Below are positions 25,489 through 33,743 of a stretch of 64,000 nucleotides of DNA, piece by piece. A program made the position numbers and the translations under genes. Below the pieces are notes generated by a model. That model did not search any database. It was given only the letters and a program-made list of their open reading frames with translations, and was not told where the DNA came from. Every line of letters starts with the position of its first letter. Within the stretch, counting starts at the first letter, position 1. The DNA comes from Pseudomonas putida (lineage in GTDB: Bacteria > Pseudomonadota > Gammaproteobacteria > Pseudomonadales > Pseudomonadaceae): the NCBI RefSeq assembly GCF_028682395.1, contig NZ_JANHLC010000011.1, forward strand, positions 1 to 64,000. The letters are read 5' to 3'.

Positions 25489-25649
25489 CGTGCTGCTCCG
25501 CTGTGGGGCGACAAACTATCGTGCGTAAACGACAGCCTTCTAGCCGCCCAGAACCAAAAAGGGCGAGCAGACTAGCATAGAAGCTTTGTCAGACAGAATC
25601 GCAAGCGCGCAGCCCGCCTGGCACGGCGGGCGCACCGGGGCGTTAGGCG

Positions 25650-26138
25650 TCAGTGCTTGGTCAGCTTGTCCAGGTAACCCATGGCAAAGGCCGAAACCAC
25701 GAACGTCATATGGATGATCACGTACCACATCAGGTATTGCGGCTCGATGTTCTTCGCATCCATGAAGACCCGCAGCAGATGGATCGAGGAGATCGCAACG
25801 ATGGAAGCGGCTACTTTCATTTTCAGCGACGAGGAGTCCATCTTGCCCAGCCAGCTGAGCTTTTCCTTGTCTTCATCAATATCGAGCTGAGAGACGAAGT
25901 TTTCGTAGCCGGAAATCATCACCATCACCAGCAACCCGCCGACCAGTGCCATGTCGATCAGCGACAGCAGTACCAGGATCAGATCCGACTCGGCCATGGC
26001 AAAGACGTTGGGGATAACGTGGAGCACTTCCTGGAAAAACTTCAGCGCCAGGGCCAGAAGCCCCAATGACAGGCCAAAGTAGATAGGCGCCAGCAACCAG
26101 CGCGAGGCGTACATCGCATTTTCGATAAAACGTTCCAT
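25650..26138 (-). CDS. YqhA-family (UPF0114) inner-membrane protein
   Basis: This 162-residue protein has about four membrane segments. It shows the UPF0114/TIGR00645 blocks [55 protein letters not shown] and [27 protein letters not shown]. The function is unknown. It has a 121-nt divergent spacer with the next lipoprotein gene. A 7-bp GC hairpin at 25612-25631 lies downstream of it without a T-run. Confidence 0.88.
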
Positions 26139-26259
26139 TGCATCTCACAGAAGGGCGGAAAATGGCGGCGAGTATACCAGTGGTAAACCCAAGGGAAAAA
26201 ACCCGATACCAGTGCTAGTGTCGCAGGAGGCCAATTGATTTCGGGACGGAAAAACCTCC

Positions 26260-28086
26260 ATGGACGTGCAACGCGCCTTCGGCTTTCTCTCACTCCTGCC
26301 CCTGCTTTTGCTGGGCGGCTGCTCACCGGACGAGCCACCGAAGCAGGCCAGCCTGCAGGAAAGAACCAGCCAGTTCGAAAAGACCCTGGAGTCCATCCAG
26401 GATCCCACGCTCAAGGACGCGGTAGCTGACCTCGGCGGCTCCCTGCTACTGCTGGAACGTGCGCACACCAAGCTCCAGGGCATGCCACTCCACACTCGCT
26501 ACGGCGAAGACGCCCTCGCCCTGCTCAGGCACTACCCCGATCCGCAGGCCATGGCACACGCCTATATCGATGGCCTGTTCGTGCTGCGCAAGCGTTCCAG
26601 CTCCGACTACCTGACCGATCTGCAACCGGTGTTTCCCTTTGCTCTGGACCAGCCTGACGAACTCGCGCTGCCGCAAAAGCTCGATTGGCTATCAGTAACA
26701 CTCAGTAATAAACAAACGGTGAGCTTCGCGCCGGAATGGTCAGAAACCGATCCCGGCATTCAACTCAGCCCGACCAGTTCAAATCTGACCAACCCAAACG
26801 ACCTGACCATCACCTACCCCTTTATCGAAGGAATCGAGGTCGAGAACCGCCAGCAGCCTCAACCCAAGATCCTGCACGGCAAGATCGAAGTGATTGTGCC
26901 TGCCAGGGTGGTGACCTTCACCCTCTCGCACAGCGATATCGGCCAGATCCGGAGCCAGGGCAATATCCAGGTCAGGCTGCTGGGCCTGGAGCAGAACCAG
27001 GCCCGCCTGGAGTTGATTGATACCCCCAAGCCGGCTCCCGAACTGGCCGATAGCCGCCTGACGCCCATGCTGGTGCAAGCACGCGACACGAGCGGGCAAT
27101 GGTTGTCGCGGGCCGGCTCAATTAATGAAAGCCCCGAGCAACTGGCGTTCTACAGGCAGCAATTAGGCGAAATGCTTGAACAGAAAAGCTGGAGCCTGGA
27201 CCTGGAAAAGCGTCTGAATGACGAGCAGCGCGCCTTCGACCAACCGCCGCACTACTACACCCAGGTCTATTTCAACGGGCAGATCGACCAGCTGGAAGTC
27301 AGCGTCCTGGATTTCTCGACGGTCAGCGTGGTGCGCAAAGACCTCGATCTACCCGTGCGCCAGTTCGACCCGACGACCACCGACAAGGACATCCAGCCAC
27401 TGGACCTGCCCGTAACCGTATACGACGAGCAAGCCGGCCAATACCTACGTGACGCGGACCTGGAGCCCGAGCAATTGCGCAAAAATGTACGGATCATCCA
27501 GTCCGTACAGGATGCCAGTGCCGCGCGGATCGAATTCGAACACCTCAGAACCTTCAACGATGAACTGATCGGCAGCAGCATCGAGCCCGGCGATGCGCCG
27601 CTGACCTTCTTCACCGCCAATGCCCAGGGCCAGCGCGGCGCCCCCATCGAACTGCCCTCCCAGGCTTTCGATATCGAGCCGCTGCACGGACGGATCACCT
27701 ACGACCTCAACCTCTTCCCGGACACACCCGCCTACGCTGTCGGCAGCATGCCCATGTTCCTAGCCGTGATCGAAAAAGCCGCCATCGCGGGCAACGCGCT
27801 GCCCAAGGGACTGGCGCTCAAAGGCAATGCGCTGATCGTCGACCAGCGCCTGTTTCCCGCCGATTCCTGGCGTTTTTACGCCAAGGATGGGAGCGGGCAC
27901 TACCTCAAGGAGATTCTTGCCGTCAGCCACCTGGCCAGCCAGGACGGCCCAGCGGTTTTCAACGTGCATTACTTCTACGGCCAGCCCGACAACCTGGAAA
28001 GCTATCAACGCACGGAACTACAAACCGTCGAGTACGGCTTCGAGATCAAGCTCGACAAACCCGAGTCCCATGCGGCTGCCCAGTGA
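26260..28086 (+). CDS. Large lipoprotein of unknown function
   Basis: I do not recognise this 608-residue protein. It begins with a lipoprotein signal (hydrophobic residues 7-18, lipobox LLGGC with Cys21, Ser at +2, so outer-membrane sorting is expected). Residues 25-110 look helical (ERTSQFEKTLESI, LGGSLLLLERAHTKL). The remainder is rich in beta-type alternation with no Cys and no enzyme motif that I can name. Part of it reads like repeated Ig-like or sandwich segments. The ribosome-binding site is poor (about ten nt away), and a GTG two codons later is an alternative start. It is followed by a convergent hypothetical gene 8 nt later, so it is monocistronic. Confidence 0.8.
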   Translation: MDVQRAFGFLSLLPLLLLGGCSPDEPPKQASLQERTSQFEKTLESIQDPTLKDAVADLGGSLLLLERAHTKLQGMPLHTRYGEDALALLRHYPDPQAMAHAYIDGLFVLRKRSSSDYLTDLQPVFPFALDQPDELALPQKLDWLSVTLSNKQTVSFAPEWSETDPGIQLSPTSSNLTNPNDLTITYPFIEGIEVENRQQPQPKILHGKIEVIVPARVVTFTLSHSDIGQIRSQGNIQVRLLGLEQNQARLELIDTPKPAPELADSRLTPMLVQARDTSGQWLSRAGSINESPEQLAFYRQQLGEMLEQKSWSLDLEKRLNDEQRAFDQPPHYYTQVYFNGQIDQLEVSVLDFSTVSVVRKDLDLPVRQFDPTTTDKDIQPLDLPVTVYDEQAGQYLRDADLEPEQLRKNVRIIQSVQDASAARIEFEHLRTFNDELIGSSIEPGDAPLTFFTANAQGQRGAPIELPSQAFDIEPLHGRITYDLNLFPDTPAYAVGSMPMFLAVIEKAAIAGNALPKGLALKGNALIVDQRLFPADSWRFYAKDGSGHYLKEILAVSHLASQDGPAVFNVHYFYGQPDNLESYQRTELQTVEYGFEIKLDKPESHAAAQ

Positions 28087-31815: not shown

Positions 31816-31889
31816 GCTCGACCCGCCCGTTCCTCCCGGAGCGGGCACTCTCGTCCCCCCTTTTCTTCGTCTGACAACAGTTGCCGAAC

Positions 31890-33743
31890 ATGCTCAAACG
31901 CCTTGCCTATCTGGCGCTCTGTGCTTGCGCCCCGCTGTATGCCGCACCGCCGCAGGACAACCCACGTTTGCAGCAACTGGCCAACGATCCGTTCTGGCTT
32001 TCCCTGGGCCATTACGAAAGCGCCAAGCTCGGTGGGTGGCGCAGTCATGTCAGCGAACCCAAATTCTTCCTGGCCAGCAACGGCGCGGAGCACCCCGAGG
32101 CCGAGCTGCGGGCCACCGTTCAGGCCCTGTACGCGCCCGCCAGCCTTGGCGAACAGCATGCCCAGTGCGTGTACCCGGCACGTACCCGCTGGCTCAAGGC
32201 TCAGTTGAACCTGAACGATCTGCCCCGCGTCGAGTGCGCGCAGTTCACCCAGTGGTTCAAGGATATCGCCCCCCATAGCGCGGTGATGATCTTCCCGGCA
32301 GCCTATCTCAACAGCCCGTCGTCGATGTTCGGCCATACCCTGCTGCGTATCGACCAGGCCGATGTACAGAGCAACAACACGGCGCTGCTCAGCTATGCGA
32401 TCAACTTCGGGGCCTATATCGAAGGTTCCGACAACAGCCTCCTATACGCCTGGAAAGGCCTGATGGGCGGCTACCCGGGGCTGTTCGCCCTGGTGCCCTA
32501 CCAGGAGAAACTCTCCGAGTACCGCAGCCTGGAAAACCGCGATCTGTGGGAATACCGCCTGAACCTGACCCAGCAGGAAACCGAGCGCATGGTCGAACAT
32601 GTCTGGGAACTCAAACAGATCCAGTTCGACTACTTCTTCTTCGATGAAAACTGCTCCTACCGGCTACTCGAGCTGCTACAGGTGGCTCGCCCCGGCCTGC
32701 ACCTGACCGAGCAGTTTTCCCTGACGGCGATTCCTACCGACACCGTGAAGGCGGTCAAGGACGCCGGCCTGGTGGAAAAGATCGACTACCGCCCGTCCCG
32801 CGAGCGCGAGCTGCTGAGCCGGGCCGAGCCCTTAAGTGGCCCCGAGCAGGATTGGGTACTGCGCGTAAGCGCCGACCAGCAACACCTGCAGGACCCGGAA
32901 TTCAAGGCCCTGCCCCGTGATCGCCAGGCACTGATCGTCGATGCGGCCTATCGCCTCGAACGCTATCGGGCCAATGGCCAGGAACGCGACCCTGCGCGAG
33001 CCCAGCGCAGCTTCGAACTGCTGCGTGAAATCAACCGCAACCCGGCACCGGAGCTGGCCATTGCCGCGCCCGGCCTGCCGGAAGACGGCCACGAGTCACG
33101 CACCTGGCAGGCCGGTATCGGCACCCGCGGCGATGAAGCCTTCGCCGAGTATGGCCTGCGCATGGCCTACCACGACCTGAACGACAATGCCGAAAGCTTC
33201 CCCCTAGGCGCCCAGATCGAAATCCTGCAGATGAAACTGCGCCAGTACGAAGGCAATCACTGGCAATTGCAGCAGTTGGACCTGGCGACCATCCGCTCAC
33301 TGACCCCGCGCAATGCCCTGGTGCAACCCTGGTCATGGCAGGTCACCGGCGGCCTGGAGCGCGTACTGGGCAAACACGGCGATGAAACATTGGTCAGCCA
33401 CGTCAATGGCGGCGCGGGTGGCACCTGGCAACTGGACGACGAATTGCTGGGCTTTGCCCTTGGCACCGTCAGGGTCGAGCACAACCAGGACTTCGCCGCC
33501 TTTATTGCCCCTGCCGCAGGCTTCAATACCGGACTGCTCTGGCGTAACCCGCTGGGCAACCTGAGCCTAGAAGCCAAAGGCGACTATTTCACCAATGGCG
33601 AAGTACGCCGCAGCCTGAGTCTCAATCAGCAGTGGGAACTGTCACGCAACCTGGGGCTGCGACTCAGTGCACAGCGCGAGTTCAGCCAGCTCAGCGCACC
33701 ACAGAACGAGGTGATGCTGGAGCTCAAGTGGTACCACTATTGA
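31890..33743 (+). CDS. DUF4105 (Lnb N-terminal-like) envelope protein
   Basis: This 617-residue protein has a signal peptide ending at PLYA. The DUF4105 domain (about residues 130-300) has NSPSSMFGHTLLRID, LSYAINFGAY and GGYPGLFALVPYQEK, with ENCSYRLLEL as the Cys-containing motif. The last ~240 residues alternate hydrophobic and polar residues like a beta-barrel and end in the aromatic residue Tyr, which suits an outer-membrane protein. The start is the ATG at 31890. The family resembles the periplasmic domain of lacto-N-biosidase maturation proteins, but its role is unknown. Confidence 0.85.
   Translation: MLKRLAYLALCACAPLYAAPPQDNPRLQQLANDPFWLSLGHYESAKLGGWRSHVSEPKFFLASNGAEHPEAELRATVQALYAPASLGEQHAQCVYPARTRWLKAQLNLNDLPRVECAQFTQWFKDIAPHSAVMIFPAAYLNSPSSMFGHTLLRIDQADVQSNNTALLSYAINFGAYIEGSDNSLLYAWKGLMGGYPGLFALVPYQEKLSEYRSLENRDLWEYRLNLTQQETERMVEHVWELKQIQFDYFFFDENCSYRLLELLQVARPGLHLTEQFSLTAIPTDTVKAVKDAGLVEKIDYRPSRERELLSRAEPLSGPEQDWVLRVSADQQHLQDPEFKALPRDRQALIVDAAYRLERYRANGQERDPARAQRSFELLREINRNPAPELAIAAPGLPEDGHESRTWQAGIGTRGDEAFAEYGLRMAYHDLNDNAESFPLGAQIEILQMKLRQYEGNHWQLQQLDLATIRSLTPRNALVQPWSWQVTGGLERVLGKHGDETLVSHVNGGAGGTWQLDDELLGFALGTVRVEHNQDFAAFIAPAAGFNTGLLWRNPLGNLSLEAKGDYFTNGEVRRSLSLNQQWELSRNLGLRLSAQREFSQLSAPQNEVMLELKWYHY

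Follow-up and report, generated by a model that had tools for sequence, protein, structure and literature searches.

The closest described systems are the outer-membrane lipoproteins exported by the Lol pathway. For Pseudomonas aeruginosa, a published account (PMC6469965) presents the sorting rules of lipoproteins as loosely defined, reports a serine at +4 and acidic residues after the cysteine as tendencies of inner-membrane lipoproteins, and mentions that Ser+4 was once suggested as a retention signal. The 608-residue protein considered here, encoded in a 64,000-nucleotide stretch of Pseudomonas putida DNA (hereafter the window), resembles the Lol-exported outer-membrane lipoproteins in having a signal peptide, a lipobox and no Asp+2, but differs by an ambiguous sorting signal and by matching no known lipoprotein family. 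It shares beta-rich repeated modules with the Ig-like and fibronectin-III-like ectodomains, which made up many of the 50 structural matches listed for a low-confidence model, whereas its first module contains a predicted helical hairpin and the protein has no sequence match to such a family. The DUF4426 protein PA0388 (PDB 3uc2) ranked fifth in the structural re-alignment of a poor model, with Z 5.5 over 82 residues, but it is a single small domain with 8% identity and no sequence match. BamH (NF053686), a beta-barrel-assembly lipoprotein, gave a weak HMM match in 2 of 14 relatives (best E 0.0028), whereas the window protein had no match at E<=1, and assignment is not possible.

The gene occupies positions 26260..28086 of the plus strand as an intact open reading frame from ATG to stop, exactly the 1.8-kb frame that a sequence-only reading had described. 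Its GC3 (0.767) resembles that of the neighbour genes, and a search of the window's genome returned one match for the protein. The signal peptide (26260..26322, +) carries the lipobox LLGGC, as that reading had claimed, and Cys21, within LLGGC-SPDE, is the sole cysteine, in agreement with a long remainder described as free of Cys. The mature protein, of about 65.9 kDa and pI 4.8 (computed, lipid excluded), begins with C-S-P-D. The residues C-S-P follow the signal peptide in 53/53 orthologues read (51 counted by script and two more, L043 and L051, in which the match started within the box; L013 and L014 are not included, since the script took the wrong strand for them); some of these orthologues are not independent, as a few genomes are present in both collections, and L006 and L057 are apparently one record (a 418333-base contig with identical sequence ends).

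The searches for known families agreed with the earlier statement that no domain could be recognised. The window protein had no match in Pfam at E<=10, one sub-threshold match in NCBIfam (BPSL0761, NF041728; 16.1 bits against a cut-off of 35, over 29 residues), a non-significant best E of 0.43 in PHROGs, no HMM match in PADLOC, and a best E of 0.33 among the sequences of solved structures (PDB). Two further searches of solved-structure sequences had a best E of 0.2 and 0.062. The relatives gave nothing above chance in Pfam, NCBIfam or PHROGs, and the best E of the family consensus in Pfam was 0.097. No enzyme family was matched above threshold by the window protein, the relatives or the consensus. 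A clear match to a described family, the finding that the sequence-only reading had named as its own refutation, did not turn up in the libraries searched, and a literature search on gene names and uncharacterised lipoproteins found no publication on the gene. This is a small protein family absent from the libraries searched.

The predicted secondary structure is consistent with the helical N-terminus and beta-rich remainder proposed earlier: in the AlphaFold2 model of the full length (20 orthologue rows, mean pLDDT 49.9), helices extend to about residue 104, mainly strands follow, and helices appear again at 292-326. The N-terminal part, about residues 32-104 (26353..26571, +), comprises the predicted helices H32-45, H49-72, H83-89 and H95-104 of this low-confidence model and may form a stalk. 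A model of residues 378-605 (28 rows) reached a mean pLDDT of 48.7. The structure prediction that had been recommended yielded a secondary structure, and both models were too poor for a fold claim. Among the 50 Foldseek matches listed against the PDB, the highest probability for the poor model was 0.30, and structural comparison placed Ig-like, FnIII-like and other sandwiches at about 214-356 and 409-602 with Z <=6.6, a range that the tool calls common. The fold may be beta-sandwich-like, which is unproven.

Profile comparison revealed an internal repeat. Module 1, residues 197-368 (26848..27363, +), carries A-x-D-x-x-G-x-x-L at 274-282 and YF-x-G at 337-340, and the predicted helical hairpin (292-326) interrupts it. 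The same motifs stand at 541-549 and 571-574 in module 2, residues 472-603 (27673..28068, +), which was delimited by the profile match and a 13-member alignment. With the hairpin removed, module 1 matched module 2 in HHalign with a score of 33.1, a probability of 69% and E 4.6e-5. Scores in 100 column shuffles averaged 11.8 and reached 21.7 at most; the choice of this cut was informed by the sequence. Of nine comparisons made with the first cuts, seven were near zero, one was a trivial overlap and one had a probability of 12%, and after trimming but before hairpin removal the probability was 33% and the score 24.7 (highest of 60 shuffles, 16.3). Judging from these profiles, one beta-rich module, present in two copies that have diverged, makes up about half of the mature lipoprotein.

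In the 13 members aligned, 19 columns were invariant (P126, W143, G207, P214, L240, D276, L282, F338, G340, L362, Y481, P490, L514, P515, A541, L549, P576, Y592 and L598). Asp276 is the only charged residue among them, Asp48 is the only one among ten nearly invariant columns, and the remaining conserved columns are small, aliphatic or aromatic. These columns look structural rather than catalytic. A conserved catalytic site is thus unlikely given that single charged invariant, which, together with the lack of an enzyme match, speaks for a role in binding or as a scaffold.

The protein diverges quickly. Its mean identity between the window and the relatives was 60%, compared with 90-97% for LonB, IspB and YqhA and 84-86% for the PA4575-like and Lnb-type proteins. 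In the 15 of 33 rows where the required genes were present, its median distance exceeded those of LonB, IspB and YqhA by a factor of 4.1-7.0; relative to the PA4575-like and Lnb-type neighbours, the factor was about 2.5-3 (window against the others). The median dN/dS was nevertheless 0.104 (260 of 820 pairs, those with dS 0.1-0.8; the pairs are not independent, a few genomes occurring in both collections), and no 40-residue block showed a sign of positive selection, the highest median being 0.21 (residues 1-40). The lipoprotein is therefore fast-diverging yet under purifying selection. Among the main Pseudomonas orthologues the most constrained stretch was residues 161-200 (26740..26859, +; ETDPGIQLSP..NLTNP.DLT.TYP), with a median dN/dS of 0.018, where the remaining 40-residue blocks had 0.06-0.21. 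This stretch is not kept in the divergent relatives L071 and L072 or in the copies with another anchor described below.

The same genes surround the lipoprotein gene in its close Pseudomonas relatives, a conservation that the sequence-only reading had proposed to check. Upstream and divergent lies a TIGR00645 protein recognised by NCBIfam, which we take to be YqhA (25650..26138, -), found in 28/28 loci and in 31/33 rows of the neighbour-distance table; in L071 and L072 it does not adjoin the lipoprotein gene. Downstream and convergent lies a PA4575-like protein of 106 aa matched by Pfam (PF24876; 28095..28415, -), found in 28/28 loci and 33/33 rows and with no plasmid match. A LonB-like protease lies beyond it, and the order YqhA, lipoprotein, PA4575-like protein, LonB is kept in all 28 loci with flanks (L002-L029). 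Both neighbours are on the minus strand and the lipoprotein gene is therefore a single-gene unit, as had been stated. Because of its median dN/dS of 0.10 and of these constant neighbours in 28/28 close relatives, it is a real, conserved gene. The gene on the far side of YqhA, presumably FklB, is separated from it by a gap of just 161 bp (25489-25649), and L072 and L075 have a 101-aa open reading frame (MNLQE...) in the interval from FklB to the lipoprotein site. Further downstream, 31881-33743 (+) encodes a 620-aa protein made of an Lnb_N periplasmic domain, DUF7843 and DUF7840, which matched the NCBIfam lipoprotein N-acyltransferase Lnb weakly (24.1 bits against a cut-off of 550).

Alignment of the window with 16 chosen relatives detected a common upstream element ending in the core TGCTAGTGTC (26213..26222, +), with one change in the core in L048. 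The longer form of the relatives, TTTTCTGCTAGTGTC, had one exact copy in each of the 5 relatives searched, always before the lipoprotein gene, and no exact copy in the window's genome; the window retains the core alone. In the window the core occurs exactly once, and with 1 mismatch it gave 2 matches against 2.5 expected, which is not significant by count. No regulon was evident in six genomes, where 2 single-mismatch sites lay elsewhere, in two genomes, and where a reversed control pattern gave 4 matches. The conserved element is probably a promoter. A terminator scan returned 4 matches against 3.6 expected and a promoter scan 0, which is uninformative.

The single-sequence search matched 30 of 95 genomes, including the window's own and one (G012, 36% over 66 aa) taken as chance, as its frame was unlike a gene and was missed by the profile. 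With the profile, a match was found in 147/298 genomes of the genus (the match in G872 is a fragment) and in 47/298 genomes at family level, of which 4 belong to a second genus, g41. At the level of the order, a profile of the other-anchored copies matched 8/293 genomes, namely 5 of the genus and 3 of family f222, and class-wide searches matched the window's own genome alone (1/369 and 1/274). Scoring covered no more than 4 first-look candidates per genome in the genus profile search and in one further search, so that second copies could escape. The 27 loci from the named collection were all labelled Pseudomonas. A check of 20 of the 151 genus genomes without profile match found YqhA in 20/20 and the PA4575-like gene in 19/20 (not found in G026), with a gap of 85-325 bp between the two in the 19 genomes with both, which corresponds to the empty site. 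On a YqhA tree of 53 rows (33 carriers and 20 non-carriers; L071 and L072 were dropped as they have no YqhA), the presence of the lipoprotein needs 4 changes, and all carriers fall inside one supported 39-row set that includes 6 non-carriers. This tree, a single-gene one with many weak forks, fits a history of one gain and about three losses. A mobile or defence origin was considered and rejected, with no match in plasmids, phages or PADLOC and a normal GC3; viral contigs gave 13 pattern stretches, none confirmed. A large envelope protein without a family in the libraries searched is carried by about half of the sampled species of the genus.

Some homologues have another anchor. Inspection by eye identified copies without lipobox and with a hydrophobic N-terminus in g41 (L068-L070, L074), in L075 and L076, and in f222 (L133, L135), and one L132 copy without lipobox that looks secreted. 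Each of the three f222 genomes has one lipobox copy and one copy with a hydrophobic or secretory N-terminus. L075 and L076, whose identity to the window protein is 31-33%, are the second copies in G762 and G764; in these 2 of the 298 genus genomes the lipobox copy and the non-lipobox paralogue flank YqhA (L075 7589-9418, L076 7757-9550). From its sequence, the hydrophobic segment of the g41, L075 and L076 copies looks like an uncleaved anchor. A 13-row tree grouped lipobox and other copies within each lineage with support of 100/99 each, and a single clade of lipobox copies was rejected, as it costs 31 log units (p-AU 0.00019); the tree has long branches and includes a row whose composition is odd, and support for the Pseudomonadaceae lipobox group is 49/41. 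An independent origin of the split between lipobox and other anchor in each lineage is favoured by this tree, though not proven.

Taken together, we give about an even chance to the reading that these proteins, tethered to the envelope and acting in binding or as scaffolds rather than as enzymes, form a Pseudomonadales family not described before, whose window member is probably an outer-membrane lipoprotein in which a helical stalk carries two beta modules that bind a partner. The lipobox, the conservation, the two beta-rich modules and the other anchoring come from the sequence, and from them we infer the rest. After export and acylation, the Lol system would sort the protein to the outer membrane, where the short helical stalk would hold the two beta modules in the periplasm (the surface being less likely) and the modules would bind a putative partner or ligand; the clade-specific residues 161-200 would be the likeliest contact site. 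The same ectodomain carried on a lipid or on an N-terminal hydrophobic anchor would make the partner reachable from either membrane, which suggests the periplasm. The flanking genes, described earlier as unrelated, indeed show no functional link to the lipoprotein, and the g41 and f222 copies have different gene neighbours, which counts against the binding or scaffold reading. The other-anchored paralogues, the two internal repeats, the empty site in the checked non-carriers and the constraint on residues 161-200 go beyond what the sequence-only reading had noticed.

Of the earlier term "outer-membrane-type lipoprotein", the lipoprotein part stands by the lipobox and the outer-membrane part is a prediction from the C-S-P-D of the window protein, which has no Asp+2, Lys+3 or Ser+4. 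Retention in the inner membrane, where the lipoprotein would act beside YqhA or another inner-membrane protein, appears unlikely. It would agree with Ser+4 in 24/51 relatives and with the acidic residues after the cysteine, tendencies reported in PMC6469965 for P. aeruginosa inner-membrane lipoproteins, as well as with the divergent YqhA gene in 28/28 loci and with its place between the two copies in L075 and L076. Because of the Ser+4 count and the acidic residues, we lowered the binding or scaffold reading from slightly better than even to even, and raised inner-membrane retention by a similarly small step within the unlikely range. However, Asp+2, Lys+3 and Ser+4 are all missing from the window protein, L071 and L072 keep the lipoprotein gene without an adjoining YqhA, and YqhA is kept without the lipoprotein gene in all 20 non-carriers checked. 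A location at the cell surface, as an adhesin, a receptor or a shield against phages, predators or competitors, would explain the distance relative to LonB, IspB and YqhA and the patchy presence (half of the genus genomes, with a short empty site in 19/20 non-carriers checked) by contact with the outside. We hold it to be improbable, since no 40-residue block shows a sign of positive selection, the distance relative to the PA4575-like and Lnb-type neighbours is just two and a half to threefold, the homologues anchored by a hydrophobic segment would be exposed to the periplasm, and plasmids, viral contigs and phages gave no match. Finally, an enzymatic activity on an envelope polymer or lipid, its catalytic site differing among family members, would be in line with the large size and with strictly conserved polar clusters in the main Pseudomonas orthologues, e.g., PEWSETDPGIQLSP. 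As these clusters are not kept in L071, L072 or the paralogues, and Asp276 is the one charged family-wide invariant in a protein with no enzyme family above threshold, we regard an enzymatic role as very unlikely.

The binding or scaffold reading leaves room for a bolder and distinctly doubtful idea, that of a two-membrane ectodomain family, in which a beta-module ectodomain would sit on a lipid anchor in the outer membrane and, in some lineages, its paralogue on an N-terminal hydrophobic anchor in the inner membrane. Pseudomonadaceae and a second family would each have acquired this pairing independently. Where a genome has both, they could span the periplasm by joining into a self-assembling bridge or a sensor, and a lone lipoprotein would use another partner. 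If true, this would offer a simple system for studying how one ectodomain serves both membranes; if not, the family boundary, the module duplication and the candidate contact site are still of value for annotation. At L133 9779-17298 (f222), a family copy lies near a tandem pair of carboxylesterase-type lipoproteins and a protein that combines PAP2 and passenger-associated repeat domains.
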